In this document: one piece after another, positions 7,441 through 30,124 of the stretch
How positions within the stretch are numbered: position 1 is the first letter of the stretch
Layout: each line of letters opens with the position of its first letter
Source of the DNA: Candidatus Chloroploca asiatica
GTDB lineage: Bacteria > Chloroflexota > Chloroflexia > Chloroflexales > Chloroflexaceae
DNA length: 34,340 nt
Reading direction: 5' to 3'
Assembly: GCF_002532075.1 (NCBI RefSeq)
Contig: NZ_LYXE01000136.1
Span: 1 to 34,340 of the forward strand
Translations under genes and position numbers: made by a program
The notes under the pieces: model-generated
Database searches by the model: none
What the model saw: only the letters and a program-made list of their open reading frames with translations
What the model was told of the DNA's origin: nothing

Positions 7441-7490
7441 CAGTGCAATTGGCCCTGCGGGGTATGCGTTGTTAGGTCTATCGGCGGAGC

Positions 7491-7847: not shown

Positions 7848-7894
7848 CTACGGCAGAAACTGCCGTAGGCGAGATGCCCGGGGCCTGCGGCCCC
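7848..7894 (-). terminator. Two hairpins after aroB
   Basis: A perfect 9-bp stem with an AAA loop (CTACGGCAG / CTGCCGTAG, 7848-7868) and a 6-bp GGGGCC/GGCCCC stem with a 3-nt loop (7880-7894) lie 22-68 bp downstream of the aroB stop. No T-run follows on the minus strand, so they may protect the 3' end or work with Rho instead of forming a classic intrinsic terminator. Confidence 0.4.
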
Positions 7895-7915
7895 AAAGCC
7901 CTGGCCGTAGGCGGC

Positions 7916-9052: not shown

Positions 9053-9093
9053 AGACTGTTCAACCAGCAGCTTTCTCTATCAAAAGGGACGGA

Positions 9094-9121
9094 TGCTACG
9101 ATACTCTTCATTGTACAATGA
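9094..9121 (+). promoter_or_regulatory. Extended -10 and 14-bp operator-like palindrome
   Basis: TGCTACGAT at 9094-9102 is an extended -10 element. The perfect palindrome TCATTGTACAATGA occupies 9108-9121, exactly where transcription would start. A repressor bound there would block initiation towards the small ORF and the metal ATPase. No regulator gene is next to it. Confidence 0.45.
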
Positions 9122-9131
9122 GTAGCATGAT

Positions 9132-9254
9132 ATGGCGCAGGTCCTTGAACATAACCTTCAGCCTCTGTTCCCGCAAGGAAACCTGCAGGTATACGCCGCC
9201 GCGATCCTTGGGCGAACAGAGCCGTGTCCCGGCGCACACCTCTGGCAGGTTTGA
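9132..9254 (+). CDS. Possible 40-residue small protein
   Basis: An ATG frame of 41 codons that ends in TGA, with codon choice like the neighbours (GCC, CTG, ATC, GGC common). The product starts MAQVLEHNLQPLFPQG and ends PGAHLWQV. It has no membrane segment and one cysteine. It lies between a likely regulated promoter and the metal ATPase, so it could be a leader peptide or small accessory protein. No strong ribosome binding site is seen, and it could equally be a remnant. I do not recognise it. Confidence 0.3.
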   Translation: MAQVLEHNLQPLFPQGNLQVYAAAILGRTEPCPGAHLWQV

Positions 9255-9258
9255 GGGG

Positions 9259-9331
9259 TTAGATTTCGTTGCTTTCGGTCGGTACAAGCTAGCGACGCTA
9301 GCTTGTACCGACCGGAAGCAATCAGATTTGA
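9259..9331. repeat. Long imperfect inverted repeat
   Basis: Centred on A9295, the arms pair without break from 9276-9294 with 9296-9314 (19 bp). They continue after one T/G mismatch for six more pairs, then as a diverged extension to about 9259/9331. The loop is a single base, so DNA would form a cruciform and RNA a very long hairpin. No T-run follows. It looks like a decayed palindromic mobile element or a structured leader; the flanks give no clear target-site duplication. Confidence 0.6.
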
Positions 9332-9371
9332 GGGCGCAGCCCTCAAGCATACATGTTAGGGCACGAGCCCT
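9328..9371 (+). promoter_or_regulatory. Two leader hairpins before the ATPase
   Basis: TTGAGGGC/GCCCTCAA (9328-9346, 3-nt loop, 8 bp) and AGGGC/GCCCT (9358-9371, 4-nt loop) follow each other directly. The second ends just before the AAGGAA ribosome binding site (9375-9380). Their arms share AGGGC and GCCCT, so they could also pair alternately, which is the layout of an attenuator or metal-responsive leader. This is an inference. Confidence 0.35.
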
Positions 9372-9386
9372 GAAAAGGAACCTACC

Positions 9387-11564
9387 ATGAGCACCACCAC
9401 TGAGGTGATCGAGGTGAACATCTGTGGCATGGATTGTGCCGATTGTGCGGCGCATGTGCAGCATGCGCTGGCGGCCCTGCCGGGCGTGGAACATGCGACG
9501 GTGCTGCTATCGGCAGAGCGGGCGGTTATTCGTGGTGATCCGGCGCTGGTCACGTTGCCGGCGCTGCGAGCGGCGATTGAGGCTGCGGGGTATAGCGTGC
9601 CTGATCCCAAAGTTGCTGGTGAGCTAGGTTCTGTGAGTGGAACTGGGGCAACGCTGACACGCCAGGTCTTCACCATCTTTGGCCTGATCTTCGGTGCCGT
9701 GGTACTGATCGTGGTGGTGGGTGAATGGCTCGGTCTGCTTGAGGCCGTAACCGAAGTCGTACCCTTCTGGCTCGGAGCAAGCCTGGTACTCGTGGCTGGC
9801 TGGCCGGTCTTTGCCAATGTCGTTCGTGCGGCCTGGCGTCGCCAGATCATTGCCCATACGCTGATGACCGCCGGGGTTGTCGCGGCCCTCGCGGTTGGTC
9901 AGTGGGCGACGGCGGCTGTCGTGGTCTTTTTTATGCGCATCGGCGATTATGTCGAACATCTGACCGCTGAGCAAGCGCGTCGAGCGGTGCGCAAACTCAA
10001 TGAACTGGCCCCACAGATGGCGCTTGTTGAACGCGAGGACGGAGAATATCAGGTTCCCGTAGCTGAGGTGCGGCCAGGAGAGACGGTCATTGTTCGCCCC
10101 GGAGGACAAATCCCGGTTGACGGTATGGTGGTGAGCGGTCAGGCACTGATCAATCAGGCCGCGATTACGGGCGAGTCGATGCCGGTCGAGGTAGGCCCTG
10201 GCGTGCAGGTCTATGCGGCGACGATTGCGCAACTCGGCAGCCTACGGGTGAAAGCACTGCACATCGGGGCAAACAGCACCTTTGGGCAGGTCATTCGGAT
10301 GGTCGAAGAGGCCGAGGCAAACCGAGCGCATGTGCAGCGCCTGGCCGATCGTTTTGCGACCTGGTTTCTCCCGGTGGTGCTTGGCCTCGCCCTCCTGACG
10401 TTGCTCGTGCGACGTGATCCGCTGGCAACGGCAGCCGTCCTTGTTGTGGCCTGCTCGTGCTCGTTTGCCCTAGCGACCCCAGTCGCAATGCTTGCCTCGA
10501 TCGGCAATGCCGCACGGCGCGGATTATTGATTAAAGGGGGCCGGTACATCGAATTGCTCGCCCGCGCCGATGTGCTGCTAGTAGATAAGACCGGTACGTT
10601 GACGATGGGGCGTCCGACGCTGACCCATATTGTGCCTTGCCACCCCGAATGGAACGAAAACGATCTGCTGACACTCGCCGCCACAGCCGAGCGCTATTCA
10701 GAACATCCGCTGGCCGAAGCGGTACGCGAAGCAGCACGTGAGCGCAACCTGCCCCTCGCAGCCCCAGACAATTTTAGCGTTGTGCCAGGAGTTGGGATCA
10801 AAGCAACGATCAACGGGCAAGAAGTGATGATCGGCAGTGCCCGTACCCTGGTTGGTGAACAGACGCTGACCCCAGAAGTGGTACGGCGTGAGGCTGAAGG
10901 CGGCAGCTTGCTCTACGTGACTGTGGACGGTGAATGCATTGGGGTGCTAGTCGCCACAGATACCGAACGGCCCGACGTGACGCGTGCGCTGACAACTTTA
11001 CGGCACATGGGGCTGCACGAGATCGTCATGCTGACCGGCGATCGTGAAGCAACGGCAGCAGCTCTCGCCGAGCAGCTTGGCATTGCCTACCGTGCCCAGT
11101 TATTGCCTGAGGACAAACTCGCGCTGGTGCGCATGTATCAAGCACAGGGGCATACAGTCATCATGGTTGGTGACGGCATCAACGATGCCCCGGCGCTGGC
11201 ACAGGCCGATATTGGGATCGCGATGGGCGTGACCGGGATTGACATCGCGATTGCAACCGCCCCGATCACCTTGATGCGAGACGATTGGGCATTGCTGCCC
11301 GAGTTGCTCGCCCTTTCACGACGGACGATGGGCATTGTCCGTGGTAACCTCGGGTTTACCGTAGCCTATAATCTGGTTGGCCTGAGCCTGGCGGCCCTGG
11401 GCTTCTTGCCGCCCATTGTTGCCGCCGCAGCCCAATCGTTACCTGATCTAGGCATCATGGCGAACTCGGCCCGGCTCCTCCACAAAGACTCAGCACATAG
11501 CGTTCATACGGCTGTTCAGGACGAATATCGACCGCACCCAGGGCCACAATCCGCCCATAGATAG
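9387..11564 (+). CDS. P1B-type heavy-metal ATPase with CSC motif
   Basis: A 725-residue membrane pump that uses ATP to move a transition metal across the inner membrane. In order: an N-terminal HMA domain with GMDCADC (C17, C20), membrane helices at about 95-150 and 157-185, the actuator TGES (261-264), the ion-site helix, the phosphorylation site DKTGT (D400), and GDGINDAPAL near the hinge. The ion-site motif, CPC or CPx in nearly all relatives, reads C356-S357-C358 with Ser in place of the conserved Pro. The last helix has the unusual QSLPDLGIMANSARLL. The metal cannot be named. Beyond the usual end (SARLL) the frame runs about 25 residues into the convergent gene. The ATG has AAGGAA 6 nt upstream. 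Confidence 0.93.
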   Translation: MSTTTEVIEVNICGMDCADCAAHVQHALAALPGVEHATVLLSAERAVIRGDPALVTLPALRAAIEAAGYSVPDPKVAGELGSVSGTGATLTRQVFTIFGLIFGAVVLIVVVGEWLGLLEAVTEVVPFWLGASLVLVAGWPVFANVVRAAWRRQIIAHTLMTAGVVAALAVGQWATAAVVVFFMRIGDYVEHLTAEQARRAVRKLNELAPQMALVEREDGEYQVPVAEVRPGETVIVRPGGQIPVDGMVVSGQALINQAAITGESMPVEVGPGVQVYAATIAQLGSLRVKALHIGANSTFGQVIRMVEEAEANRAHVQRLADRFATWFLPVVLGLALLTLLVRRDPLATAAVLVVACSCSFALATPVAMLASIGNAARRGLLIKGGRYIELLARADVLLVDKTGTLTMGRPTLTHIVPCHPEWNENDLLTLAATAERYSEHPLAEAVREAARERNLPLAAPDNFSVVPGVGIKATINGQEVMIGSARTLVGEQTLTPEVVRREAEGGSLLYVTVDGECIGVLVATDTERPDVTRALTTLRHMGLHEIVMLTGDREATAAALAEQLGIAYRAQLLPEDKLALVRMYQAQGHTVIMVGDGINDAPALAQADIGIAMGVTGIDIAIATAPITLMRDDWALLPELLALSRRTMGIVRGNLGFTVAYNLVGLSLAALGFLPPIVAAAAQSLPDLGIMANSARLLHKDSAHSVHTAVQDEYRPHPGPQSAHR

Positions 11565-16618: not shown

Positions 16619-17260
16619 TTACACAGGGATACGATAGCGGCAGCAATGCTGACCGCAGGCAATGGAACTTTCACGGACAAGCGGCGCACCAAGCAGGGCC
16701 TCGTAGAGGCGTTCTTCCTGAAGACAGATCTGGTTGTATTTGCGCGCCACACAATCAATCGGGCAATTGTACTCGGTCAACACGAAGGAACCATCTTCTT
16801 CTTCGACCCACTCGCACATATAGCCCTGCGCAGCAAGCAGCTTGGCTAACGTCTCGACCTTCTCACGCCGATTCTTATCAGCAAGGTGTGGGCCAAACTC
16901 GTGCAACATCCTTTCGTGCCGTTGTTCGAGCACTTCTTCGAGCACCATCGCGCCACCGATATGTTCAAGATAGTGCAACAGATCAAGCACCAGACGGTCG
17001 TACTGTTTGGGAAAGCGCGCTTCGGCTTCGGGTGTCAGCACATAGAGATTAGAAGGCCGCCCGATCTGACGACGCAAGCCCGAGACAGAGACAAGCTTGT
17101 CGCGCTCGAGAATGGCAAGGTGCTGGCGGATGCCAACTGCGCCGATACCCAGGTGTTCGCTCAACTCCAGCGCAGTCATCTCACCATAACGACGCAACAA
17201 CTGGAGAATGCTTCGTCGTGTAGAACCCTGCTCTTTTCGCTCAGTCGTGATGGTGTCCAT
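16619..17260 (-). CDS. SufR-like Fe-S transcriptional regulator
   Basis: A 213-residue DeoR/ArsR-like regulator. A winged helix-turn-helix covers about 17-75 (ILQLLRRYGEMTALELSEHLGIGAVGIRQHLAIL), with a wing region RQIGRPSNLYVLT. The C-terminal half has seven cysteines (C149, C166, C170, C179, C202, C206, C207); the C166-x12-C179 spacing is that of SufR, the repressor of Fe-S cluster assembly genes, which holds an Fe-S cluster. The protein probably senses iron-sulfur or oxidative status and controls the operon it shares with sodA; that is an inference. The ATG at 17260 fits the family start better than the upstream 17320. Confidence 0.82.
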   Translation of the reverse strand: MDTITTERKEQGSTRRSILQLLRRYGEMTALELSEHLGIGAVGIRQHLAILERDKLVSVSGLRRQIGRPSNLYVLTPEAEARFPKQYDRLVLDLLHYLEHIGGAMVLEEVLEQRHERMLHEFGPHLADKNRREKVETLAKLLAAQGYMCEWVEEEDGSFVLTEYNCPIDCVARKYNQICLQEERLYEALLGAPLVRESSIACGQHCCRYRIPV

Positions 17261-17340
17261 TGCTCTACGGCTTTCATGCTGATGCACTGTCGCTGAAACG
17301 TGACTGGCATCGCATACCATGCATTACGAAACCTATAACG

Positions 17341-17391: not shown

Positions 17392-17420
17392 TTGCCGCAT
17401 AAGGATGGGGTTTGTATAAT
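17392..17420 (+). promoter_or_regulatory. Promoter overlapping the start of the giant gene
   Basis: TTGCCG (17392-17397), a 17-bp spacer and a perfect TATAAT (17415-17420). Transcription should start near 17427-17428, which is the A of an in-frame ATG (17428). If so, the message would be leaderless and the ATG at 17419 and TTG at 17392 would not be used. Confidence 0.5.
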
Positions 17421-20400
17421 GAACGCGATGGATAACGATCAACCAAACTCCCCTCCACATACCTCTCGGCTAGCAGGTTCAATACCTGTCTGGCTGTCGC
17501 GCCTTTTGCTGTTGCTCATTTTGTTGCTGGGAGCCTATTTTCGCACCCTTAGCCTCACCGATTGGGATGCGGGCACCGGGCAGCATCCTGATGAACGCTT
17601 TTTTGCCGATGTTACGTCCAATGTCCGGTTGCCTGCGAGTCTCGGTGAGCTCTATGATTCATCGCGGTCGCCGCTGAATCCGCGGAATAATGATCGCTTT
17701 CCGTTTTTTGCCTATGGCCCCCTGCCGGTCTGGATGGCCCGCACGGCTGCCGTTGCGCTGACACCCGACACACGTCCTGATGGAACACCCAATTTTCCGG
17801 CGCAAGTGCCGAGTATCAATGGGCCACCTCGTGCTGGCCTTGATCCAACGCGACCACAAGAACGCCGCACCGATCTCGGCCCTCTCGTTGATAATCCCGA
17901 AGCAAGCTTTGTTCGCCTGACGCCGCTGATTGCCCTGGTCAACCCCGAGGGGCGCAATCTGACGATGTATGGCGACATCCAGAAGGTTGGGCGGAGCCTC
18001 GCGGTGCTTTTTGATCTCGGGTCGTTGCTCTTGATCTATTTGATCGGGCGGCGTCTCTTTGGGGTGCGTGTGGGTCTACTCGCGGCTTTGCTTGGCGCGA
18101 TGGCCGTGATGCCGATCCAGCAGTCCCATTTTTTTGTTGATCCGATCTTTTCGACCTTCTTTGCGCTGTTGAGTATCTATTGGATTGTAAGGATGGCGCA
18201 GGGTGGTGGCCCGCTCGTAGCAATGCTCGTGGGCTTCAGTATCGGCGCGGCAATGGCCAACCGCATTACGATGGCAACCCTGGGGGGCCTGGCGATCGTC
18301 GCTGCACTGATTTCCGCAGCACGTTTTGTGCAGACGCAACGTAGCCAGGCGGGTCAAGCCACGTATCTCCCGTCACTTGTGTGGCCTCTGCTGGCACGCT
18401 TCTGGCGGCGCGACTTTCCGTTGCTGGTGTTCGCCGGGGCAATGACGCTGCTTAGTTTTCGGACGCTCTCGCCCGATGCGTTTACCGGGTCGCGCCCCGA
18501 TTCGCCGGTGGTGGTGAGTGACGGGCACGGCGGCGCGGGGTTGCTGCAGGGGGCCGGGTTCCTTGATGTGCGCCTTGAGCCGCGCTTTCTGTCGGGGCTC
18601 AGCAGTGTGAGTGGCCTCGTCAGCGGCGAGGTTGATTTTCCACCGTCGCAACAGTGGGTCGCCCGTACAGCGTACCTCTTTCCCTGGAGCAATATGGTGC
18701 TCTGGGGGATGGGGCCAGCGCTGGGGTTGGCAGCCTGGGGCGGCTGGCTCGCCTTTGGACTTGGCGGGCTACGTCGGGTGCTCTGGCCGGGCCGTGACGA
18801 TCCGTTGGTCAGTGCCGCCTGGGTGCCGTTTGCCTGGGTCACCTTCTATTTTCTCTGGCAGGGTGGGCAGTTTGTCATTACGCTGCGCTACCTCTTGCCG
18901 ATCTATGGGCCGCTGATCATCTTTGGCGCCTGGGGACTCGTGGGCCTGTGGTCGTGGCGGCGCACACCACCCACGCTACCCCGCATTCCCGTGGCGCTGC
19001 CACGCCAGGCGCCACCTGTGCTGCTCTTTTCCGTCATCATGCTCACGCTGGGTTGGGCCTATGCGTTTACCCGCATCTATACCCAACCCCACTCGCGGGT
19101 GATGGCGGCCCGTTGGCTCGCCGATCATGCGCCCCCTGGTTCGTATGTGATGTCGGAAACCTGGGATGATGGGTTGCCCCTCCAGGTCACGCGGGCTTCG
19201 TGGGGCCAGACCTTTCAGGGCATTTCGTCGGCCCCCTACGCCGAAGATGAGTTGCGCAAATATGTCGGCGGCCTCGGCGGCGATGGGCGCTTCGAGCCAG
19301 GCCTGCTTGATCAACTCGATCAGGCCGACTATATTACGCTGACCAGCAATCGCGTCTATGATAGTACGTCGCGGCTGCGGATGCGCTACCCCGCGCTGAT
19401 GCGCTACTATCAAGCGCTCTTCAATGGCGAACTTGGCTTTCGCCTCGTCGCTGAAGTCACGTCCTACCCACGGATCATGGGGATCGAAATCCCTGACCAG
19501 GCCGCCGAAGAGGCGTTTCATGTCTATGACCATCCCAGGGTACTGATTTTTGCCAAGACGCCGGCCTATTCACGGCAGCGCGCCGAAGCTTTGCTGATCA
19601 ACGAGGTGCTCTGGGGTGAGGTCTACAAGTCGTCGGTACGGGTGGCCGACCGCAATGTGACGGCATTGCGCTTGACTGATGCGCAGTGGCCGCGCTATGC
19701 CGCCGGTGGTACCTGGGCCGAGTTCTTTCAGCGACCGGCGTTGCTCACAGCGCTTGCGCCGCTCTTCTGGGTCATCATCTTGCAACTGCTCGGGTTGGCG
19801 ACCTTTGCGCTCGGCTTCCGCTGGCTGCGCTGGCTGCCTGATCACGGGTATAGTCTGGCAAAGATCGTCGGCTTGCTGCTCGTGGCCTATGCAGCCTGGT
19901 TGATGGGGAGCCTGGGCAATCGTCCTGGCATCCCCGGGCGTGGTGCCGAAGAAGCCCTGGGCTGGGGACCCTTTCCGCTCGCCTTTGCCCCAACGACGCT
20001 CTGGCTCGTTGCGCTGCCGCTGCTAGTCGCCGGGGCGCTGTCAGCCTGGTTCAATCGGGCGAGCCTGGCCGACGTCTGGCGAACCCGCCGGAGCGCCATC
20101 CTTGGGGCCGAACTGGTCTTCGTGAGTTTTTTGCTGCTCGGCTTGCTCTTGCGTTGGTTCAACCCCGACCTGTGGCACTACGCCCGCGGCGGCGAAAAGC
20201 CAATGGATTTTGCCTACTTCAATGCGGTACTCAAGAGTGCAGCTTTTCCACCGTATGATCCCTGGCACGCCGGCGGGACGATCAACTACTACTATTTTGG
20301 CTTTGTCCTTGTTGGTACACTGACCCACCTGAGTGGCGTGGTGCCGAGCATTGCCTACAATCTGGCCGTGGCGACGATCTTCGCGCTCACGGCTGTCGGG

Positions 20401-23400
20401 GCCTGGGGGCTTGTCTATAACGTCCTGGCCCAACCCGTCGCGTCGTCAGAGCACGATCTGGCGAAGACCGGGGAGCGACGCGCCCTCGTCGCGGCCCTGC
20501 TTGCCCCGATCTTGCTGCTCGTCCCGGGAAATCTCGCCCAGGCGCTCTGGTATCTCAATGGTTACGCCACTGAGCAGGCGACCAGGGGGCGCGGCGAATG
20601 GGCCTACTGGGACGCGACACGCATTGTTGAGGGCACCGTCAACGAGTTTCCTTTTTTCACTTTTCTCTTTGGCGACCTGCATGCTCATATGCTTGTGATG
20701 CCATTGAGCCTGGCGCTGCTCGGGCTCGCGGTGGCGTATCTGTTGATACTGCCGCGTGTGCAGGTCGTGACGAGCAAGCCTGTTTGGCGCGATCTTGGGG
20801 GCGTGGTTGGCCTAGTGATACTGATGGGCCTGTTGGCCGGGGTCATCAGGGCAACGAACACCTGGGATTATCCCTCGTTTGTCGGGTTGGCGGGCTTGAT
20901 CATGGCGGGGGCGGGCTGGCGGGCGAGTCGCGCTCAGTTGCGTGGCGAGCAGGCACGGTGGCTCTGGGCCCTGATCTGGGTTGCAGTGCCGCCGTTGGTG
21001 ATGGTCTTGATCGGCAATCTTTTGATCGTGCCCTTCACCTCGAATTTTGCCACTGAATCTTCTGGGGTCGCCCTGTGGCGCGATGATCGTCACATCAGCC
21101 TGCTGCTGCAGGTCGCACTCGCGCAGCGCACGACGCTCGGCGAATTCTTGTTGCTCTATGGACACTGGCTGGTCGTGGCGCTCGTGGCTAGCGCGATGCT
21201 AGCGCGGCGCTGGCTCAAACCTGTGCCGCTTGCCGTGAGCGCAGGGGTGCTTGTTGTCGTGATGGTCAGCCTCGGCTTGCCGGCGATCCTTTTGCTCGGG
21301 CCACTGGTTGGCGTGGGCATCTGGATGCTCTGGCGGATACGCCGGGCGCCCTACGATCTCGTGCTACCGGTGCTCTGGCTGGTTGCCGCGCTCGGACTTA
21401 GCGTACTCGTCGAGATCGTGGTGGTCAAGGGCGATGTCGGGCGGATGAATACCGTCTTCAAGTTTGGCCTGCACACCTGGATGCTCTTTGCGCTTGGCGT
21501 AGCGGCGCTCTTGCCGCGTCTCTGGGCACCTGGGCGCAAGGCGAACCGCGCAACGGCGTTGCTCCGAGGCACCTTCGTGGTGCTCGGCGCAGCAGCCCTG
21601 GTCTATCCGCTGACGGCGACGCCAGCACGGATCGGCGATCGCTGGAACCCCGAAGCCCCCCGTGGACTCGACGGCGCAGCGTTTATGCAGTGGATCAGCG
21701 CCGAGCGCCACGGCAACGCCTTTGCCCTCAACGAAGACGCGGCAGCCATTGCCTGGCTCCAGGCGCATGTCACCGGAACGCCGGTGATCCTTGAGGCGCA
21801 TCAACCCTCGTATCAGTGGGCCGGGCGCGTCGCAACCTTCACCGGTCTCCCTACGATCCTCGGCTGGGAATGGCACCAAATTCAGCAACGCAATGCGGTC
21901 AATGCGAATACGGCGATTGCCTTCCGCCAGCAAACGATCGAGACGATCTACACGACCACAGACGTGCCCATAGCGCTCGAACTTCTCCGTGGCTACGGCG
22001 TCAGCTATGTCTATGTGGGCAGCGTCGAACGCGAATACTACAGCGCCGAAGGCCTGGCGAAATTTGATAGTCTGACGAGCTCCGGTGAACTGGAGCGGGT
22101 CTTTGCCGAAGGCCAGACGGCGATCTATCGCATGGTGAGTCCTGGTACACCGCAGATGCTGACGAGCGACCGTGTGCTGGATCCTCCGGTGATGGATCTT
22201 ACCCCGCCACTACTACTGGACACCCCGGTCAACCAGTTACCTGCGGTTGATGAATTTGCCTGGAACCCCTTCGTCCGCGAGAGCTCGATTGCCTCGTTGT
22301 TGCTCTGGATCGTGGTCTTCTATGGCGTAGCGCTGATCGGTCTTCCCACGGCGGTGATCATCTTTGGGCACTGGCGCGACGGCGGGGTTGTCTGGGCACG
22401 CGTGCTCGGCTTGCTCTTGCTTGGGTACGCCATCTGGCTACCGACCAGCCTGGGGCTATGGTCCTATAATTATCAGGGCGTCCTTGGCGGCCTGATCCTT
22501 GTCGCCGGCCTCAATCTAGGCTTGCTCGGGTGGCTTGGGCGGGGCGCTGAAGCATCGCTGAGCGGTCGCATCAGGGCAGGGCTACGGCATCTACTGGCGA
22601 GCCTGCAAACAAAGCGCCGCGGTATCTTCTGGAGCGAAGGAATTTTTCTGGGGGGCCTACTGGCGCTAGCGCTGGTACGTGCGTTCAACCCCGATCTCTG
22701 GCATCCCATCTGGGGCGGTGAGAAACCGATGGAAGCCGGCTTTCTCTATGCGATCTTACGCAGCCCGGTGATGCCGCCGTTCGATCCGTTTTTCAGTGAT
22801 GGGTATATCAATTATTACTATTACGGCTTCTACCTGCTCTCGCTGCCCATCAAGCTCACCGGCACGGCCCCGGCGATTGGCTTCAACCTGGCGGTCGCGA
22901 CGCTCTTTGCGTTGACCGTAGCGGGAGCCTTTGCCATCGTGTCCGAGTTGACGGGGCGGGTGCGCTACGGATGGCTGGCCGTAGCACTGGTCGGCATCCT
23001 GGGCAACCTGGCGAGCTTCTTTGCGACAGGCTGGTCACGGGGCGCAGCGGCGGTGTGGCAGGTCTTCCGTGGTGGCAGCCTATCTACCTTCGGGGAGCGC
23101 CTGGGCGATTGGTACATCGGGCCGAGCCGGGTGATCCCCAATACCATCAACGAATTCCCTGCGTTTACCTTTCTCTTCGCCGATCTGCATCCCCATATGA
23201 TCGCGCTGCCGATTGCGTTGTTGCTGGTGGCGTGTGCCTTTGAGTTGAGCCGGTCTCGCCCTGGACTCCCTGCGGCAGAACGCTTGCCGCAAGCCCCGCG
23301 GCTGGCGTGGTACACGACGCTGGTGGTAAGCGCGTTGAGCCTGGGCACGCTGGCGGTGACGAATGCATGGGACGTGCCAATCTATGCGCTGCTGCTTGGT

Positions 23401-25299
23401 CTGGCGCTGCTCGGTGGCGCGTGGCGCTCGGTGGGGCGGGGAGAACGCGGCATGCCGTGGGCAGCGCTGGGTCAGGCGCTGCTCGTCGCGGTGCTGGTCA
23501 GCGTAGGCGGCTTGCTGCTCTATGCACCGTTCTTCGACCACTACTGGGCACCCGTTGGCGGAATAGGGGTGGTGGAATGGGCTGATGGCACGCAGATCCG
23601 CGACTACCTGGTGATCTACGGCTTCTTTATGGCGACCCTGATCCCCGTCTTGCTCGGTGGCTTGCAACGAGTCTGGGGGCAACACCGGGTCGCCGGTGAT
23701 CGCCCGGTGGTGACAGCCCTTGGCATCAGTCAACGCCTCTCGATCGGCATCTCAGCCAACTCGCTTGTCTATCTGGTGGGCCTGTTGCTGCTCATTGCGG
23801 CCCTTGTGCCACCGCTGGGATTGCGCGCAGCACTGGCATTGCTCTTGCTCATTGGACTCTTGCTACTTGGGCAGCGCCGGCTCACCAGCGCAACCTGGTA
23901 CGGCTTTGGGTTGGCCTGGGTGGGCCTGGCCGTCTCGCTTGGCGTCGAACTGGTCTATATTCGCGATCACCTCGCCGGGGGCGATTGGTATCGCATGAAT
24001 ACGGTCTTTAAGTTCGGGTTTCAGGTCTGGATCTTGCTTGCGCTCGCAACCGCGATCAGCCTGCCCAACCTGTTGCGGGCGTTGCGGCGCCTAGGCGGCA
24101 GACCAGCACAGACGGCGGCGCTGACGGTGCTGGGGCTCTTGCTGGCCATGATGGCGGTCTACCCGCTGGCCGGCATTCCCTCGCGCATTGCCAACCGTTT
24201 TGAAGTGCAGACGGGGCTAACGCTTGATGGCAGCGCCTTTTTGGCGCAGGCCGGATTTGGCTATAGTTGCGCTGCATTTGGCGGCTGTGCCCCTGGGATG
24301 AACGAGGCCTTTATTGATCTCCGTGGTGACGCCGAAGCGATTGACTGGCTGAACAAAGAGATCAGTGGCACACCGATCGTCGTGCAATCAAACCTCTCTT
24401 TCTACCGAGGCTATGGCATTCGCATCGCCGCCAATACAGGCCTGCCGACTGTCGTCAGTGCCTTGCATGTCAACGAGCAGCGTGATCCACAGGTTGCCGC
24501 ACGGCGCGATGCCGACGTCGAGCGCTTTTACAAAAGCCCCGATGTCGAAGAGGCGTTACGCTTCCTGGCGCGCTACAATGTCGACTATGTCTATGTGGGC
24601 GGGGTCGAGCACGCGATCTATTCTGCCGAAGGGCTCAGCAAATTCAAACAGATGGCGGGCATCTACCTCGACCCGGTCTTTGCCACCTCAGCCGTGCAGA
24701 TCTATGCGGTACGGGGTGTGCCCTCAAGCTATGCGCGCCCCGAGGCCGCAGTTGGCAGCAGTGGTAGCACCAATCGCCCTGGGATGCCAATCGCAGCGCC
24801 TGCGGCTGATCTGGCCGAGCTTGAAGCAGCGCACCGCGCCAACCCAACCGACGGCCCCATCGCGTTTGGCCTTGCCGAGCGCTACCGCAATCTGGGGCGG
24901 CTCGATGAAGCTGCGCGCATTCTCGAGGCACCCGCGCTGGCGAATCCTGATGATATTGGCGTGCTGCACCTCTGGGGCGATATCCTGGCGGACGCCGGGC
25001 GCTACCGCGAGGCCGAAGAGGCCTACCTGCGGGCGGCTCGCCGTCAACCAACCAGCGGCAACTGGAACAAGCTCGGGGCGGCCCTGTTGAGCTGGGGCGA
25101 GTTTGACAAGGCCGAGATCGCGTTGAGCCAGGCGGTGGCGGCAAACCCAAATGAGCCTGAACCCTATTTTCGCCTCGGCCAACTCTTTCGCGAAATCGGC
25201 GACCGCGACCGCGCCCGGGCCATGCTTGAAACCTATCTCCAACTCGCGCCCGATGGCCCCTGGGCCGCCGAAGCGCGCCAGTTATTGCAGGTTGAGTGA
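17419..25299 (+). CDS. Giant GT-C / double YYY-domain / TPR membrane protein
   Basis: About 2626 residues. Residues 1-780 resemble a GT-C (family 39-like) glycosyltransferase: a membrane helix, then D48-W-D and HPDER (56-60) in the first outer loop. Two YYY (DUF2298-type) modules follow, each about 840 residues, starting near 784 and 1626. Each has INYYY (955, 1797), an EFP-x-F-x-F-DLHxH block (1075, 1911) and RMNTVFKF (1342, 2192), then a soluble part ending YVYVG-x-E-x-x-x-YSAEGL. A TPR tail covers 2465-2626. It is probably a polytopic enzyme or transporter for cell-surface glycans or lipids; no function is established. Starts at 17392 (TTG), 17419 and 17428 are all in frame; the promoter favours 17428. 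Confidence 0.88.
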   Translation: MNAMDNDQPNSPPHTSRLAGSIPVWLSRLLLLLILLLGAYFRTLSLTDWDAGTGQHPDERFFADVTSNVRLPASLGELYDSSRSPLNPRNNDRFPFFAYGPLPVWMARTAAVALTPDTRPDGTPNFPAQVPSINGPPRAGLDPTRPQERRTDLGPLVDNPEASFVRLTPLIALVNPEGRNLTMYGDIQKVGRSLAVLFDLGSLLLIYLIGRRLFGVRVGLLAALLGAMAVMPIQQSHFFVDPIFSTFFALLSIYWIVRMAQGGGPLVAMLVGFSIGAAMANRITMATLGGLAIVAALISAARFVQTQRSQAGQATYLPSLVWPLLARFWRRDFPLLVFAGAMTLLSFRTLSPDAFTGSRPDSPVVVSDGHGGAGLLQGAGFLDVRLEPRFLSGLSSVSGLVSGEVDFPPSQQWVARTAYLFPWSNMVLWGMGPALGLAAWGGWLAFGLGGLRRVLWPGRDDPLVSAAWVPFAWVTFYFLWQGGQFVITLRYLLPIYGPLIIFGAWGLVGLWSWRRTPPTLPRIPVALPRQAPPVLLFSVIMLTLGWAYAFTRIYTQPHSRVMAARWLADHAPPGSYVMSETWDDGLPLQVTRASWGQTFQGISSAPYAEDELRKYVGGLGGDGRFEPGLLDQLDQADYITLTSNRVYDSTSRLRMRYPALMRYYQALFNGELGFRLVAEVTSYPRIMGIEIPDQAAEEAFHVYDHPRVLIFAKTPAYSRQRAEALLINEVLWGEVYKSSVRVADRNVTALRLTDAQWPRYAAGGTWAEFFQRPALLTALAPLFWVIILQLLGLATFALGFRWLRWLPDHGYSLAKIVGLLLVAYAAWLMGSLGNRPGIPGRGAEEALGWGPFPLAFAPTTLWLVALPLLVAGALSAWFNRASLADVWRTRRSAILGAELVFVSFLLLGLLLRWFNPDLWHYARGGEKPMDFAYFNAVLKSAAFPPYDPWHAGGTINYYYFGFVLVGTLTHLSGVVPSIAYNLAVATIFALTAVGAWGLVYNVLAQPVASSEHDLAKTGERRALVAALLAPILLLVPGNLAQALWYLNGYATEQATRGRGEWAYWDATRIVEGTVNEFPFFTFLFGDLHAHMLVMPLSLALLGLAVAYLLILPRVQVVTSKPVWRDLGGVVGLVILMGLLAGVIRATNTWDYPSFVGLAGLIMAGAGWRASRAQLRGEQARWLWALIWVAVPPLVMVLIGNLLIVPFTSNFATESSGVALWRDDRHISLLLQVALAQRTTLGEFLLLYGHWLVVALVASAMLARRWLKPVPLAVSAGVLVVVMVSLGLPAILLLGPLVGVGIWMLWRIRRAPYDLVLPVLWLVAALGLSVLVEIVVVKGDVGRMNTVFKFGLHTWMLFALGVAALLPRLWAPGRKANRATALLRGTFVVLGAAALVYPLTATPARIGDRWNPEAPRGLDGAAFMQWISAERHGNAFALNEDAAAIAWLQAHVTGTPVILEAHQPSYQWAGRVATFTGLPTILGWEWHQIQQRNAVNANTAIAFRQQTIETIYTTTDVPIALELLRGYGVSYVYVGSVEREYYSAEGLAKFDSLTSSGELERVFAEGQTAIYRMVSPGTPQMLTSDRVLDPPVMDLTPPLLLDTPVNQLPAVDEFAWNPFVRESSIASLLLWIVVFYGVALIGLPTAVIIFGHWRDGGVVWARVLGLLLLGYAIWLPTSLGLWSYNYQGVLGGLILVAGLNLGLLGWLGRGAEASLSGRIRAGLRHLLASLQTKRRGIFWSEGIFLGGLLALALVRAFNPDLWHPIWGGEKPMEAGFLYAILRSPVMPPFDPFFSDGYINYYYYGFYLLSLPIKLTGTAPAIGFNLAVATLFALTVAGAFAIVSELTGRVRYGWLAVALVGILGNLASFFATGWSRGAAAVWQVFRGGSLSTFGERLGDWYIGPSRVIPNTINEFPAFTFLFADLHPHMIALPIALLLVACAFELSRSRPGLPAAERLPQAPRLAWYTTLVVSALSLGTLAVTNAWDVPIYALLLGLALLGGAWRSVGRGERGMPWAALGQALLVAVLVSVGGLLLYAPFFDHYWAPVGGIGVVEWADGTQIRDYLVIYGFFMATLIPVLLGGLQRVWGQHRVAGDRPVVTALGISQRLSIGISANSLVYLVGLLLLIAALVPPLGLRAALALLLLIGLLLLGQRRLTSATWYGFGLAWVGLAVSLGVELVYIRDHLAGGDWYRMNTVFKFGFQVWILLALATAISLPNLLRALRRLGGRPAQTAALTVLGLLLAMMAVYPLAGIPSRIANRFEVQTGLTLDGSAFLAQAGFGYSCAAFGGCAPGMNEAFIDLRGDAEAIDWLNKEISGTPIVVQSNLSFYRGYGIRIAANTGLPTVVSALHVNEQRDPQVAARRDADVERFYKSPDVEEALRFLARYNVDYVYVGGVEHAIYSAEGLSKFKQMAGIYLDPVFATSAVQIYAVRGVPSSYARPEAAVGSSGSTNRPGMPIAAPAADLAELEAAHRANPTDGPIAFGLAERYRNLGRLDEAARILEAPALANPDDIGVLHLWGDILADAGRYREAEEAYLRAARRQPTSGNWNKLGAALLSWGEFDKAEIALSQAVAANPNEPEPYFRLGQLFREIGDRDRARAMLETYLQLAPDGPWAAEARQLLQVE

Positions 25300-27758
25300 C
25301 CGTGCTAGACGTTCTTATCTGGTGGATCACAATTCAATTGATCGGTCTGGTTGGTCTGCCGATCACCGGAAGTATATTCCGAGCGCTGCCTGATCGTGGC
25401 TATGCCTATGCCAAAGCCTTCGGTCTGCTGCTGGTCGGCTATGTCGCGTGGCTCTTGGCGATGCTGGGCCTGGCCCAATTTGGCAGGCCCGTGCTGATCG
25501 TTGCGGCGCTCGGTGTTGCCATCGCGGGCATCTGGCTTCACGGGGGCGTGCGTGCAGCATTGGAACGAGCCAGAGGCTTTTTCGCAACGCGTTGGCAGGC
25601 AGTGCTCGCTTCTGAGGCCATCTTTCTTGGCGCACTGCTGGCGACGGTCTGGATGCGGATGCACGACCCGACGCCCTTTGGCACCGAGCGTCCGATGGAT
25701 TTCGCTTTCTTTAACGCGATGCTACAGAGTGGCGGTTTCCCGCCGGTTGATCCGTGGCTGGCTGGGTTTAGCATCAACTACTACTACTTTGGCTATCTGT
25801 TGATGGCCGCGATGGCCGCGCTGACCGGCCTCGCACCCGGGGTTGCGTATAATCTAGCGCTAGCCCTGATTGTGGCGTTGACAGCCCAGGGCGTCGCCGG
25901 TACCATCGCCAACCTGATCATCCTGGCGCATCCAGATGCGCAAGACGAGGGGCCTCGCCGCAGATGGCCGCGCCTGGCAGCGCGGATCGTCTTTCCGCTA
26001 CTCGGCGTGATCTTTGTCTTGTTGGCAGGCAACCAGGCCGGGGCGGTGCAGGTGCTGCTCGGTGACGAACGCACGGTCGCCCTCGACAGTCGACAACTCG
26101 TCTCGGCATTTGGTCAGGCCCTCGGCAGCAACGACGAAATCGTGCTCCCCTCGACAGTGACGACCAACGAATTTGGCACCATTGATCGCTGGCAACGCAA
26201 CGACAAACTCGCTGACTTCAACTGGTGGTGGCCGTCGCGAGCGCTCTGGGACGAGTATGGCGACGCGGGAGGCGTACGGCGCTACAATATCACCGAGTTT
26301 CCCTTCTTTAGCTTTCGGCTCGGCGATATGCACCCGCATGTCATGGCGCTGCCCTTTGGCGTGCTGGCAACTGCGCTCGCCCTGGCAACCCTGTTGCGCC
26401 CCGGTTTACCAGGCAACACTCGTGGTGACCTGGGCCTGCTCGCGCTCAGCGGCCTGATCCTCGGCAGCCTCTACACCATCAATAGCTGGGATCTCCCGGC
26501 CTATCTGTTGCTCTACGCTGGCGCGATAACGCTGGTGGCCCGACGGCAACCGGGGCCGCTGCCGTGGCTGGCGCTGGGACGCACCTTGTTCATCGTGAAT
26601 TTCGGTGCGTATCTGCTCTTTCTCCCGTTTCATCTGACGCTGCAACCCCTGGTTGGCAGTGCGGCACCGCTCATTGATGTGCCCGTGCTTGGCCGCCTTA
26701 CCAGCATCATTGCACCCTACACCGCCGGGCGCAGCGGTCTCCACGCCTTCATCATCAGCTTCGGGCTCTTTGCCTTGCCGATACTTGTTTTTCTGTATCA
26801 GCGTACATTGGCGTGCCAAAAAGAGCCACCGGCTGAAGCCAACGCGCTCCCATTGCTGCGGCTGCTCTTCTGGCTACCGCTGATCTTAGTGCCCATCGGG
26901 CTCATTGCCCATTTTCCGTTGCTCCCCCTGGGCGGGCTGGCCGTACTGGCAATGTGGGCCGCAATGCAGCAAACCCACCGCCCCGCCGCGAGCTTCGCAC
27001 TCCTGGTGACGGCTCTCGGTTGCGCGATCATCTTTGGCACCGAAATCATCTTTATCCGCGATGTCTTTGGCAACCGGATGAACACCATCTTCAAATTCTA
27101 CTACCAAGTCTGGCTACTCTGGGGAACCCTGGCCCCGTTTGCCCTCTGGTGGATCATACACGAGGCACGCGGAACCCGCCGTGTTGTCGCCTGGACAACG
27201 GCGGGCCTCACCGGGGTCCTGCTTGCCGGGGCACTGGTCTACCCGGCACTGAGCCTGCGCGACCTGGGGCGCGGCCCACTGATCGGGCTCGAAGGACGCA
27301 CCCCACGTGAACAGAGCGAGGCCGGCTTGGCCTCGATCCGCTGGTTGCGCCAGCAAGCGCCGCCGGGCAGTGTCGTGCTCGAAGCAGCGGCGGTCGAAGA
27401 TTTGGCAGCGCAGCGCTGTGGCGGCTCATACGACGTGCGCAGCGAAGGCTGGGGCGGAGTCGCGTCGACCACCGGGCATCCGACGGTTCTGGGCTGGGTT
27501 GGGCATCAGCAGCAATGGCGTGGGGGCGATCCGGTTGCCATGGCCGAGTTAGGGCCGCGCTGTGTTGATGTGGATACGATTTTTCGCACCACCGACACCG
27601 CCACGGCCCGCGACCTGCTCACCCGCTACCAGGTCACCCACGTCTACCTCGGAGCGCTCGAGCGCCGCCTCTACCCCCCCGAGAGCCTGGCCAAATTTGA
27701 ACTGCTTGGGGAAGCAGTCTTTCAGCAAGACGAGGTCAGCATCTACCAGATCCGCTAG
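25296..27758 (+). CDS. Single YYY-domain (DUF2298-type) membrane protein
   Basis: An 820-residue polytopic protein equal in length and order to one YYY module of the preceding giant gene. It has the LPDRGYAYAKAFGLLLVGYVAW opening helices, ERPMDFAFFNAML, INYYYFGY (from 160), the EFPFFSFRLGDMHPH block (from 334), RMNTIFKFYYQVW (from 594) and the VYLGALERRLYPPESLAKF end. It lacks the GT-C and TPR parts. The GTG start overlaps the giant gene's TGA (GTGA), so the two are translated together. A second N-x-F block with Trp-rich WWWPSRALWDEYG lies before the DMHPH motif and is not in the other two modules. Function unknown; probably acts with the giant protein. Confidence 0.88.
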   Translation: MTVLDVLIWWITIQLIGLVGLPITGSIFRALPDRGYAYAKAFGLLLVGYVAWLLAMLGLAQFGRPVLIVAALGVAIAGIWLHGGVRAALERARGFFATRWQAVLASEAIFLGALLATVWMRMHDPTPFGTERPMDFAFFNAMLQSGGFPPVDPWLAGFSINYYYFGYLLMAAMAALTGLAPGVAYNLALALIVALTAQGVAGTIANLIILAHPDAQDEGPRRRWPRLAARIVFPLLGVIFVLLAGNQAGAVQVLLGDERTVALDSRQLVSAFGQALGSNDEIVLPSTVTTNEFGTIDRWQRNDKLADFNWWWPSRALWDEYGDAGGVRRYNITEFPFFSFRLGDMHPHVMALPFGVLATALALATLLRPGLPGNTRGDLGLLALSGLILGSLYTINSWDLPAYLLLYAGAITLVARRQPGPLPWLALGRTLFIVNFGAYLLFLPFHLTLQPLVGSAAPLIDVPVLGRLTSIIAPYTAGRSGLHAFIISFGLFALPILVFLYQRTLACQKEPPAEANALPLLRLLFWLPLILVPIGLIAHFPLLPLGGLAVLAMWAAMQQTHRPAASFALLVTALGCAIIFGTEIIFIRDVFGNRMNTIFKFYYQVWLLWGTLAPFALWWIIHEARGTRRVVAWTTAGLTGVLLAGALVYPALSLRDLGRGPLIGLEGRTPREQSEAGLASIRWLRQQAPPGSVVLEAAAVEDLAAQRCGGSYDVRSEGWGGVASTTGHPTVLGWVGHQQQWRGGDPVAMAELGPRCVDVDTIFRTTDTATARDLLTRYQVTHVYLGALERRLYPPESLAKFELLGEAVFQQDEVSIYQIR

Positions 27759-27763
27759 AGCGC

Positions 27764-30124
27764 TTACACCTCGCCATACAACTCGAGCAACTCACGCCAC
27801 TCGCCGGTCAACTCCTCGCGTCGGGCGGCATAATAAAAATGCACCTCGCCCTGTTCATCGACAAAGACAAGATCGACCTGACTACGCATCGGGCGAAGGT
27901 AGCCAAGATTGCCCCACCAGCGGATCTTCTCTTCATCGAGGGGCAAATCCTGCTGATACATCCGTGCGGCATACTCGCGCACCGTACCGGGTTCAATATC
28001 CTGCAGGCGCCAGGGCACGCCACTGACATCGCCGGTACGCAGATTGCGAAAGACATACTGCCACTCACCATCTTCGCTGCGCGTCGCACTGATGACCTCA
28101 ATCCCGGTACGCGGGCGAGCGACGCGAATCAAACCGAGCCACGCATCAGTCAACTTCTCAAGCGGCACACCCGGATAACTCTGCTGACCGGTGCCGTCCT
28201 TATCTTTCATCATCAAGTCAAAACTCGGCTGCCCATGGGCATCGCGATGAATGCCGGCCAGACCGCCGCGACCCTTCCAGCGGATACGGCGTTCGGCCCA
28301 GATATCGGGTTCAAAGAGCGCAGTGCTATCAGTGAAAAGGGGTTCATCACCCACCACAAGTTGTTGCGGAGCATCATCAGCGGGATCAAAGGCCTGCGTC
28401 TCTTGCTCAATCGGCTCACCAGTGCGTTCCGAAAGCAACGCCATCCAGCCATCACTGAGGCCCCAATCGCTCACCCCAAAGAAGACATGGTCAATCACGC
28501 CATTGGCATCGCGATGCACCAGATCATACTTAGTACGGCTGCCCTGACGATACGCCCGCCAGAGCCCGAGCCGCCCCCGCCAGCGCACCTGGCTCTGCAG
28601 ATCAACGCGACCATCGCGCAGATCTTCGTGGCGACTGATCGCATACGCCCAGAGGCCCTGAGCGCGGTCGCGGGTCACCCCGGCGGTGGTGCGCAAATCA
28701 CGCACCTCATAGAGCCACACGCCGGCCCGTTTCTGGCACGTGACAATCTCAACGCCCGAGCGGGGCAGATCGAGATCCTGTCCATTATCGAGGGGGGACG
28801 AAGCGCCTTCAGCGAGCGCACGTCGGCAGAGTTGAATAATCTCACTGCGATCGGCGATCGTCGTCTCGCCATCACGACGCACATAGATCGTGCCATTCAG
28901 CCCGACATAAGGAGGAGGCTCGCTCGCCTTCACTTCGACGCGCATAACATCCTGGCCCTCGTAGCTCATCAACTCAAACGACAGATACGGATTTGGGGAC
29001 ACCTGTTCGGCAATGCTCTTGCGGAGCATCTCGCTCACATAATCGGGGCGAGCCACGCCAAGCACCTTGCCTCCGGGCTCGCAGCCAAGCACAAGCACAC
29101 CGCCACCGGCATTCGCCAGGGCCGCCACATCAGTCCAGAGCAAGGCTACCGTCGAAGGATCATCACCGATAGCCCGCAACACCTGGCGTTCGGTGGAACC
29201 ACCGAAGCGCACCGCATCAACCGCCCATTGCTTCTGGTCACGCTTGGGCACGCGCACGCGATCAAAATCCAGGCTCGCAAAGAGGTTACGCAGCGCCTCA
29301 AAGCTATTATTGGGCAAGAGCAACTCGATATAGCGGTCGCCAATGCCGTGTTTATGCACCACCTGCCCATCGCTCTGGGGCAAACGGCGCAGGCGGTGGG
29401 CATCGCTCCCCTGAATGCAAAACATCCGCCGGTCGTAGTGTTCTGTTTTGCCATTGTAAAAGCCTGGCGACGTGAACTTCTCGTGATCAGTATAAAAATT
29501 AACAAACTCGAGGGCATGCAAATGCAGACTCTGCGAGACCGCAATCCGCGACTGCCCACTCGTGCCCATGCGCAACGTCTCAGTCACCACGCCATTGGGC
29601 CCATTGATATGGGGGGCAATGACAATCCCGCCTGCCCGCGCAATAATCTCGTAGGCATCGGTCACATGGCGGGTATTCGAAATCCCACAGACGCCCCCCT
29701 TCAGCTGTTCAGCCGGAACACCGAGTTGCAAAAGCGTCGTCTCGATCAGGCTAATCGGGCGATTCGGGGGAAAGATGCCCAGCACATGCGCCCCAAAGTG
29801 GGACGTAAACTCAAAGCCCGGCAGCACAGTGATCTTTTTGAGCAAACGGCGATATTCATCGATCCGCGCTTGTTCATCGGCGGTCAGGCGACCGGCTGCC
29901 TCAAGGGCACCTAAAAAATCAAGCTCGCGCTGAAACTGCTCGTACCCATGAACGGTATTGTGATCCGTGAACGCAATAATCTCTAATTCGCGGCGCTCAG
30001 CTTCCTGGAGAATATCGAGATACGTAACTTCAGGTTCTACATAATCTTCTGATGCTGGGGTATGAATATGCAAATCCGCACGCATCCAGCGCATACCACT
30101 ACGAACTTCGGTAGGGAGACTCAT
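27764..30124 (-). CDS. PHP phosphoesterase / Schlafen-AlbA fusion
   Basis: 786 residues. Residues 15-245 are a PHP metal-dependent phosphoesterase: DLHIHT (H19, H21), FTDHN (D54, H55), GFEFTS (E105), H172 in APHING and GSDAH (D241, H243). About 295-435 match the Schlafen AlbA_2 nucleic-acid-binding fold: ALANAGGGVLVLGCEPGGKVLGV and YVRRDGETTIADRSEI. The rest (450-786) holds a repeated Trp-rich unit, (I/V)RW-x-G-x-x-G..DLV..D..G, three times, with GVEIV/GIEVI openings twice. A nuclease or nucleotide phosphatase in defence or repair is likely; this is inferred from the fusion. The ATG has GGAG 12 nt upstream. Its stop is 5 bp from that of the convergent YYY gene. Confidence 0.85.
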   Translation of the reverse strand: MSLPTEVRSGMRWMRADLHIHTPASEDYVEPEVTYLDILQEAERRELEIIAFTDHNTVHGYEQFQRELDFLGALEAAGRLTADEQARIDEYRRLLKKITVLPGFEFTSHFGAHVLGIFPPNRPISLIETTLLQLGVPAEQLKGGVCGISNTRHVTDAYEIIARAGGIVIAPHINGPNGVVTETLRMGTSGQSRIAVSQSLHLHALEFVNFYTDHEKFTSPGFYNGKTEHYDRRMFCIQGSDAHRLRRLPQSDGQVVHKHGIGDRYIELLLPNNSFEALRNLFASLDFDRVRVPKRDQKQWAVDAVRFGGSTERQVLRAIGDDPSTVALLWTDVAALANAGGGVLVLGCEPGGKVLGVARPDYVSEMLRKSIAEQVSPNPYLSFELMSYEGQDVMRVEVKASEPPPYVGLNGTIYVRRDGETTIADRSEIIQLCRRALAEGASSPLDNGQDLDLPRSGVEIVTCQKRAGVWLYEVRDLRTTAGVTRDRAQGLWAYAISRHEDLRDGRVDLQSQVRWRGRLGLWRAYRQGSRTKYDLVHRDANGVIDHVFFGVSDWGLSDGWMALLSERTGEPIEQETQAFDPADDAPQQLVVGDEPLFTDSTALFEPDIWAERRIRWKGRGGLAGIHRDAHGQPSFDLMMKDKDGTGQQSYPGVPLEKLTDAWLGLIRVARPRTGIEVISATRSEDGEWQYVFRNLRTGDVSGVPWRLQDIEPGTVREYAARMYQQDLPLDEEKIRWWGNLGYLRPMRSQVDLVFVDEQGEVHFYYAARREELTGEWRELLELYGEV

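Follow-up and report, generated by a model that had tools for sequence, protein, structure and literature searches.

The window analysed here, i.e. the whole stretch of 34,340 nucleotides at positions 1 to 34,340 of contig NZ_LYXE01000136.1 of Candidatus Chloroploca asiatica, contains two adjacent genes with modules of the YYY family (TIGR03662, Chlor_Arch_YYY; PF10060, DUF2298). The first is a giant open reading frame (ORF) on the forward strand (17392..25299), which encodes 2,635 amino acids (aa) from a TTG codon, or 2,626 aa from an in-frame ATG at 17419. The second is a single YYY gene on the same strand (25296..27758), coding for 820 aa from a GTG codon; its overlap with the stop of the giant ORF reads GTGA. 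Scans with Pfam and NCBIfam showed that the giant consists of a PMT_2-type N-terminal domain (N-domain), two TIGR03662/DUF2298 modules and tetratricopeptide repeats (TPRs). TIGR03662 aligned to two stretches of the giant (E=0, 1206.4 bits for both copies together) and to one of the single gene (6.6e-181, 603.6 bits), against a curated cut-off of 300.25 bits. DUF2298 was found in the giant with 7.6e-229 and in the single gene with 1.1e-107. All three modules are full-length family members far above the curated cut-offs.

The N-domain, a PMT-like GT-C unit with an outer globular domain, covers 17419..19743 and carries an HPDER motif at 17584-17598. It is directly followed by YYY module A (19744..22137), then by module B, the second in tandem (22144..24717), and by the TPR tail (24793..25293; Pfam matches at about residues 2468-2634); the separate gene is module C. 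Seven motifs, [GT]E[KR]PM[DE], PPxDP[WF], INYYY, EFPxF, D[LM]HxH, NxWDxP and RMNTxFKF, occur once per module in all three modules, and D[LM]HxH is expected only 0.003 times in a shuffled giant sequence. In module A, GEKPMD starts at residue 934 of the 2,635-aa reading, and INYYY, DLHAH and RMNTVFKF lie at 20281-20295, 20674-20688 and 21442-21465. The corresponding elements of module B are GEKPME (from residue 1776), INYYY (22807-22821), DLHPH (23182-23196) and RMNTVFKF (23992-24015); this module lacks the GW of a C-terminal GWxxH motif. Module C has a glutamate, E131, at 25686, INYYY at 25773-25787, DMHPH at 26325-26339 and RMNTIFKF at 27075-27098. Profiles, ORFs and motif scan thus agree with the preliminary description of this locus, which had proposed three head-to-tail YYY modules sharing the INYYY, EFPxF, D-(L/M)-H-x-H and RMNTxFKF blocks, two fused behind a GT-C-like domain and one separate with the GTGA overlap, and a TPR tail.

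The distribution of the family was investigated in sampled genomes. TIGR03662 was detected in 212 of 301 Chloroflexota genomes (193 over cut-off), and for an archaeal phylum the count was 100 of 148 (65 over cut-off); among 14 control genomes it was seen only in Haloferax volcanii and Methanosarcina acetivorans. Among the matches listed, 80 loci were kept, which belong mostly to Chloroflexota, plus Thermomicrobiota, the candidate divisions KSB3 and CSSED10-310 and one Methanosarcinaceae archaeon. From these loci and the window, 122 of 156 full modules were retained. A redundancy filter, from which one degenerate module (L052_F1) was shut out by name, kept 105 rows; five were left out by hand (two of L115 and one each of L107, L098 and L094), and 100 were passed to the alignment, so that its counts of 100 out of 100 exclude L052_F1. 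The N-domain alignment comprised 40 rows. In seven archaeal genomes (G305, G310, G325, G330, G335, G344 and G363), frames of about 610-690 aa match TIGR03662 weakly, and close to them lies a frame of about 165-225 aa whose match is limited to around profile positions 658-726; this is possibly a distant relative, the C-terminal piece of which also occurs as a separate gene.

When the N-terminal 775 aa were scanned alone, PMT_2 was detected over its cut-off (5.6e-9); it was not seen when the whole giant was scanned. PMT_2 was present in 40 of 40 N-domain homologues at E<=0.01, and H56, P57, D58 and E59 of the HPDER motif are invariant, giving the domain the D-E pair in the first outer loop (EL1) together with the PMT/PMT_2 profile that mark a PMT-type GT-C member. 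The predicted model (pLDDT 87.1, pTM 0.91) has 11 transmembrane (TM) helices by our count, and VIA-align placed it on the Pmt1-Pmt2 structure with Z 28.2. Searching PDB sequences with the N-domain profile returned Pmt1 (1.8e-5), ArnT (0.006), Pmt2 (0.017) and one unrelated entry (0.54). The domain thus resembles PMT and ArnT enzymes in its PMT_2 match, its EL1 D-E pair and its approximately 11 helices, and differs from them in being fused to two further GT-C-like modules. At E<=0.01, 21 of the 40 homologues also match TIGR03663 (best 4.9e-10), the NCBIfam family of the archaeal protein Agl23. The N-domain of the window itself gave no NCBIfam match at E<=0.01, and does not reach the TIGR03663 cut-off of 126.25 bits. 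Six TIGR03662 matches among the N-domain homologues are explained by an overlap of about 40 residues into the YYY module.

The fold of the YYY module was predicted for module C with AlphaFold2, using as input the 100-row alignment with rows from the window and the kept loci; the model was of high quality (pLDDT 94.0, pTM 0.95). Foldseek against the PDB gave nine matches at E<=0.001, all of them AglB, oligosaccharyltransferase (OST)/translocon or DPY19 chains. With VIA-align, rows 1-44 of the 50 listed were GT-C-fold proteins (Z 14.1-8.6), STT3 and PIG-U being inferred where the title names only the complex; the next, unrelated row had Z 5.3. For helical bundles, Z values below about 13 may arise by chance according to the tool itself, and the weight of this predicted-model comparison is in the break and the one-sided list, not in any single row. 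Most matches begin at about residue 90 of the module, and therefore three extra helices are predicted to precede the GT-C core. The C-terminal domain of the model superimposes on the isolated AglB-S2 domain with Z 10.2 and a root-mean-square deviation (rmsd) of 2.5 A over 115 residues. From the models, the giant can be read as three GT-C units in one chain, with about 11+16+16 TM helices by our count. The GT-C-like topology supposed in the preliminary description was thus recovered by the fold search for both the YYY module and the N-domain. DUF2298 may belong to the GT-C clan of Pfam. PDB sequence searches with the single proteins gave no match. With the YYY profile, 18 chance-level matches were obtained and discarded, 17 of which were triosephosphate isomerase, hit via a YVxxGxxER stretch.

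The motif residues are almost fully conserved across the family. In the 100-row alignment, E131, Y162, R315, E334, P336, H346, N396, R594, F599, K600, W606, G727, H737, R755 and E789 are invariant, and D344 (99), H348 (99), N596 (99), D152 (97) and Y164 (96) are nearly so; position 583 is acidic in 98 rows (E 83, D 15). Over the 122 modules, E131, Y162, E334, H346, N396, R594 and K600 are each kept in 121, H348 in 120 and D344 in 119. These residues are retained in all three slots, i.e. in modules fused behind the GT-C domain, in second modules and in separate genes. The INYYY and D-H-x-H blocks, on whose conservation the preliminary description had depended, are therefore kept in 119-121 of 122 modules. 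Combined with the GT-C-like predicted fold, these near-invariant residues strengthen the idea, raised in that description, that the YYY module is an enzyme.

Alternatively, the YYY module could be a GT-C-fold scaffold or non-catalytic partner, and the PMT-like N-domain alone would carry out transfer. YYY modules are indeed often fused to, or located beside, GT-C genes. GT-C-fold subunits without known transfer activity do occur in GPI transamidase, which is among the fold matches of YYY. Moreover, L052_F1, the first module in locus L052, has been retained despite the loss of 14 of 18 checked positions. It is the sole departure at E131, E334, H346, N396, R594 and K600 among the 122 modules, so that a module may be retained even when the site is gone. 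In scaffolds, however, residues of this kind tend to be lost, and E131 and H346 are kept in 121 of 122 modules and in all three slots, including separate genes located far from fused ones. A purely structural role thus appears unlikely for the family, in favour of the enzyme. As a separate observation, the degenerate module of L052 (ORF 2484-9923) lies at about residues 761-1429, and the second module of this ORF and the separate gene score as full modules; L052_F1 is an obvious candidate for an inactive module with a structural role only.

The position of the conserved residues was compared with that of known GT-C enzymes. E131 provides a conserved acid in the first outer loop (100 of 100 rows, 121 of 122 modules). 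D344 and H346 (99 and 100 of 100 rows) are located in the loop before TM4 of the model and correspond to the D-x-D/H/E pattern of the second outer loop (EL2) in STT3 and AglB. In AglB the metal ligands are Asp47 of EL1 and Asp161 and His163 of the Asp-His-His motif of EL2, according to the parts of the reports consulted (PMC8342417, PMC7226087), and DHH was present in all 30 archaeal STT3 frames extracted here. By analogy, the EL1 acid and the EL2 D-x-H of YYY resemble the AglB metal motif, and offer a precise parallel for the metal site guessed at in the preliminary description. This parallel is drawn from topology and motif and not from an alignment, since the N-terminal half of YYY gives no profile link. 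The C-terminal half of the YYY profile was aligned by hhalign with 29 archaeal STT3 sequences (score 54.2, probability 88), with GWxxH placed on WWDYGH; the reversed control scored 19.0 and the maximum of 20 block shuffles was 45.9. The WWDYG motif as such is absent, the YYY consensus being TGLPTVLGWxxH instead. Over the whole genome, the STT3 profile PF02516 found nothing at E<=0.001, and neither of the two proteins gave a match at E<=1. By analogy, YYY may work like an OST-type enzyme, yet it is not filed as OST. A strong profile match between YYY and the N-domain was rejected as an artefact, most N-domain rows running about 40 residues into the YYY module; with the trimmed N-domain profile only a weak C-half match was left (probability 54), and the N-half of YYY gave no signal against the N-domain profile (probability 0.6).

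The orientation of the module was estimated from the charge of its loops in the 100-row alignment, expressed as K+R versus D+E. An acidic excess was found in EL1 (2.9 v 4.3), EL2 (5.1 v 8.7) and the C-terminal domain (15.9 v 20.3). The presumed inner loops L1 (1.4 v 0.9), L3 (3.7 v 1.5), L7 (2.7 v 1.4), L11 (1.5 v 0.6) and L15 (1.9 v 0.4) are basic. This charge bias suggests that both the N-terminus and the C-terminal domain of YYY are likely outside the cell. The three extra helices would then allow the modules to be strung head to tail, each starting outside where the previous one ended, and the TPR tail would be outside as well. Indeed, the tail follows the presumably outer C-terminal domain of module B, with no TM segment between them by eye.

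Ten tandem proteins were identified; seven of the eight tails scanned carry TPRs, and the remaining two proteins end within 20 aa. The sole scanned tail without TPRs is that of L049, where the tail of the giant overlaps the following YYY frame by 1,450 bases (9728-11178), perhaps owing to a frameshift in this contig. For the TMTC O-mannosyltransferases, the parts of the literature consulted (PMC7801869) describe TPRs that follow 11 GT-C helices and lie on the luminal side. As these enzymes carry luminal TPRs, acceptor recognition is as likely a role for the YYY tail as assembly with partners. TMTC proteins differ in having one GT-C unit, compared with three in the giant, and in lacking YYY modules.

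The relationship between the three modules was addressed with a FastTree tree of the 122 modules, a method that is weak with long rows such as L052_F1. Slot labels changed 13 times along the tree, compared with a shuffled mean of 50.1. Among the separate-gene (S) rows, 63 of 66 fall within one supported group of 66 rows, while 35 of 41 rows fused behind the GT-C domain (F, F1) are outside the 84-row group that holds the S group. The six exceptional F/F1 rows comprise four beside second-in-tandem modules plus L117 and L094, and 8 of 10 second-in-tandem (F2) rows form one clade. Slots therefore match lineages closely, not perfectly. Module A groups with first modules and module B with second modules of Oscillochloris sp. 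ZM17-4 and a Chloroflexaceae genome, and module C with the separate genes of Chloroflexales. Consequently, the three modules of the window are old, specialised paralogues; a recent tandem duplication was rejected as their origin, as each groups with the same slot of other genera. Modules A and B share 36% and 35% identity with module C. A fourth YYY gene of the genome, on contig C77 (L004, 826-3987, reverse strand, 1,053 aa), is 39% identical to module C. It has about 200 extra residues N-terminal of the module, and similar long forms (L053, L056) pair in the tree; its neighbour looks by eye like a sugar-nucleotide epimerase/dehydratase.

Ten positions differ consistently between S and fused modules by our cut-offs, counted after dropping three rows which carry an S label but group in the tree with fused or second modules. 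Position 130 is T in 54/63 S rows and G in 39/41 fused rows, and position 741, behind GWxxH, is W in 63/63 and Q in 39/41. Inside D-x-H-x-H, position 347 is P in 57/63 and A in 33/41. In F2 rows, the GW of GWxxH shows Ser for Gly in 7/10 and a gap for Trp in 8/10. These differences fit different donors or acceptors handled with the same chemistry.

Fused and separate genes tend to occur together. An S gene of the same locus accompanies 31 of the 40 complete GT-C+YYY ORFs found in the 80 loci. It lies downstream within 1.1 kb in 27 cases, further downstream in three and upstream in one. Among the remaining nine, L101 runs to the edge of its contig, L074 leaves 1.1 kb of sequence and seven are without an S gene nearby. 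For loci in which the two types are unlinked, whole genomes were examined by frame length; 17 of 20 hold both a long frame (>=1,232 aa) and a separate one of 769-869 aa. These genomes were seven with a fused-only locus (7/7 hold both) and 13 hand-chosen with S only (10/13). This co-occurrence is a pattern of partners, no proof of contact. In two Ktedonobacterial loci, the N-domain is a stand-alone gene just upstream of an S-type YYY gene; in both (L109 and L112, Ktedonobacteraceae), the latter has a Cys at D344.

A possible supply of sugar donor was sought in the gene neighbourhood. The 20 best-scoring archaeal loci were considered, 17 of which gave neighbours, the YYY gene being absent from simple gene calls in three. 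Among the 39 genes next to archaeal YYY, 8 encode LPG_synthase_TM (flippase-like) and 7 GT2 proteins. The order GT2, LPG_synthase_TM, YYY is seen in L170 and L179, and in L164 both genes surround a YYY pair. GT2 and LPG_synthase_TM are fused in L161, and in L162 with a sub-threshold GT2 part; in L178 LPG_synthase_TM was scanned alone. In L118, a GT2 fused to a flippase-like domain precedes YYY; its best named match is a dolichyl-phosphate hexose transferase (4.8e-16, below the cut-off of that model). Synthase, flippase and GT-C protein together are the hallmark of three-component outer-face glycosylation, as presented in the parts of PMC11127046 consulted.

The same neighbourhood bears on the main rival, namely a role of these large GT-C-like proteins in carrying lipid-linked sugars across the membrane instead of transferring them, as reported for archaeal Agl23. 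A TIGR03663 gene lies 2-6 kb from YYY in at least six of the 20 best-scoring archaeal loci, all six over cut-off, and the NCBIfam name of this family, matched by the N-domain homologues mentioned above, is 'flippase activity-associated protein Agl23'. According to the parts of PMC11182771 consulted, Haloarcula Agl23 rescued yeast rft1-delta and moved lipid-linked Man5GlcNAc2 in liposomes, and it is this reported lipid-linked-oligosaccharide flippase activity that makes the flippase the main rival. Agl23 is a distant relative of the N-domain homologues; in the archaeal loci it differs in size (about 530-560 aa) and in being without YYY modules. However, the N-domain of the window is itself without a NCBIfam match at E<=0.01, a flippase-like gene already adjoins several archaeal YYY genes, and YYY retains its acids, histidines and basic residues in full, which a flippase would not obviously need. 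A flippase role for these proteins is thus considered improbable. In the genome of the window, two adjacent TIGR03663 genes over cut-off (frames of 1,151 and 808 aa) are located on contig C169 (34725-39032), away from the YYY genes.

Altogether, the two genes rather probably code for a heteromeric GT-C glycosyltransferase system in the cytoplasmic membrane, which uses polyprenyl-phosphate sugars and is probably metal-dependent in its YYY modules. The locus itself is a real, conserved and probably outward-facing GT-C assembly. In each YYY module, about 13 GT-C-like helices would be preceded by three additional TM helices and followed by an AglB-type C-terminal globular domain on the outside; the active site would face outward. 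A GT2 synthase would make a polyprenyl-phosphate-linked sugar, which would be flipped to the outside and enter the cavity. There, E131 of EL1 and the D-x-H of EL2 (D344, H346) would coordinate a divalent metal, and this metal would bind the donor phosphate, as in AglB. R594 and K600, in a later outer loop, may hold the phosphate, and the acidic residue 583 and H737, R742 and R755 of the outer domain may position the acceptor. The N-domain would act as a second, PMT-like GT-C unit with its D-E pair; the fused, middle and separate modules would act together as specialised paralogues, and the TPR tail would probably bind acceptor or partner. The D-x-H-x-H block with E334 could also form a hydrolytic metal centre. 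YYY, still metal-dependent and of GT-C fold, would then catalyse a different reaction on lipids or polyprenyl-linked compounds, e.g. as a phosphotransferase or hydrolase. This is very improbable, given that every listed fold match with Z>=8.6 is a GT-C protein and that the neighbours include GT2, flippase-like and PMT_2 genes.

Several observations, in addition to the degenerate module L052_F1, weigh against a metal-dependent glycosyltransferase of this kind. Regarding the fold, the Foldseek whole-chain TM-scores are low (TMq 0.28-0.32, rmsd 13.9-16.7 over the nine matches) and the top VIA-align Z of about 14 only just exceeds the chance level for helical bundles. Since OST, ALG, PMT and AftA rows were tied or nearly so, the fold does not pick OST. 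The STT3 profile link spans only the last helices and the outer domain, and the N-half of YYY, which holds the D-x-H, gave no profile signal against STT3 (probability 0.5). One block shuffle of the C-half reached probability 70, and pairwise hhalign E-values are uncalibrated. By helix count, position 583 and RMNTxFKF follow TM11, compared with TM9 in STT3, and D344 is replaced by Cys in both Ktedonobacterial rows. The presumed outer loops EL5 (1.8 v 1.5), L10 (1.8 v 1.0) and L12 (1.2 v 1.0) are without acidic excess. Regarding partners, 3 of the 20 genomes lack the full pair (two with one match, one with a 545-aa frame besides the S gene), and archaea often have a single YYY module. Finally, the gene immediately downstream in Chloroflexota loci is most often another GT-C gene (PMT_2, 19 of 51) and not GT2, which is not among the 25 leading neighbour families listed for these loci. 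The Chloroflexota neighbours comprised all 51 first-downstream genes and 75 of 138 hand-picked from second and third downstream and upstream positions; they also include NHL repeats, cytidylate kinase and acyltransferase. In Anaerolineae-type loci (L062, L063, L069, L079, L081), a recurrent gene row of about 570-600, 225-235, 215-245 and 1,100 aa follows the pair.

In comparison with AglB, STT3 and PglB (PF02516), YYY shares the predicted fold, the conserved EL1 acid, the EL2 D-x-H and the type of C-terminal globular domain. It differs by GWxxH in place of WWDYG, by the three extra N-terminal helices, by an insertion in EL2, and by the conserved acid and RMNTxFKF located after TM11. More speculatively, YYY could be an unrecognised metal-dependent GT-C lineage related to STT3/AglB, which in Chloroflexota would form an obligate multi-enzyme assembly, with three to four outward PMT/STT3-like sites in one complex building or transferring a surface glycan stepwise, in a bacterium without recognisable STT3; this extended proposal is doubtful. 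Pfam describes DUF2298 only as an uncharacterized membrane protein, and no paper on the function of the family was found in a full-text literature search; in the part of PMC8756737 consulted, DUF2298 is merely listed as a neighbour. The novelty is in the fused multi-GT-C layout (GT-C, YYY, YYY and TPRs plus a separate YYY), the old pairing and the AglB-like metal motif, and not in a new kind of enzyme. The family is common in Chloroflexota and in an archaeal phylum. The candidate catalytic residues, the likely orientation and the putative partner named here make its function testable. If true, the proposal would extend the outer-face glycosyltransferases by a large class and provide an example of a chain that joins three GT-C units.

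Both genes flanking the YYY pair are on the opposite strand. The upstream one (16619-17320) encodes an ArsR-type helix-turn-helix protein. The downstream one (27764-30124), convergent with the YYY gene, encodes 786 aa with a Schlafen AlbA_2 domain and a sub-threshold PHP match. Elsewhere in the window, on the reverse strand, a photolyase-like match (2959-4370) is split over two overlapping ORFs, with FAD_binding_7 in 3435-4370 and a weak DNA_photolyase match in 2959-3438, which may reflect a frameshift or an odd gene order.

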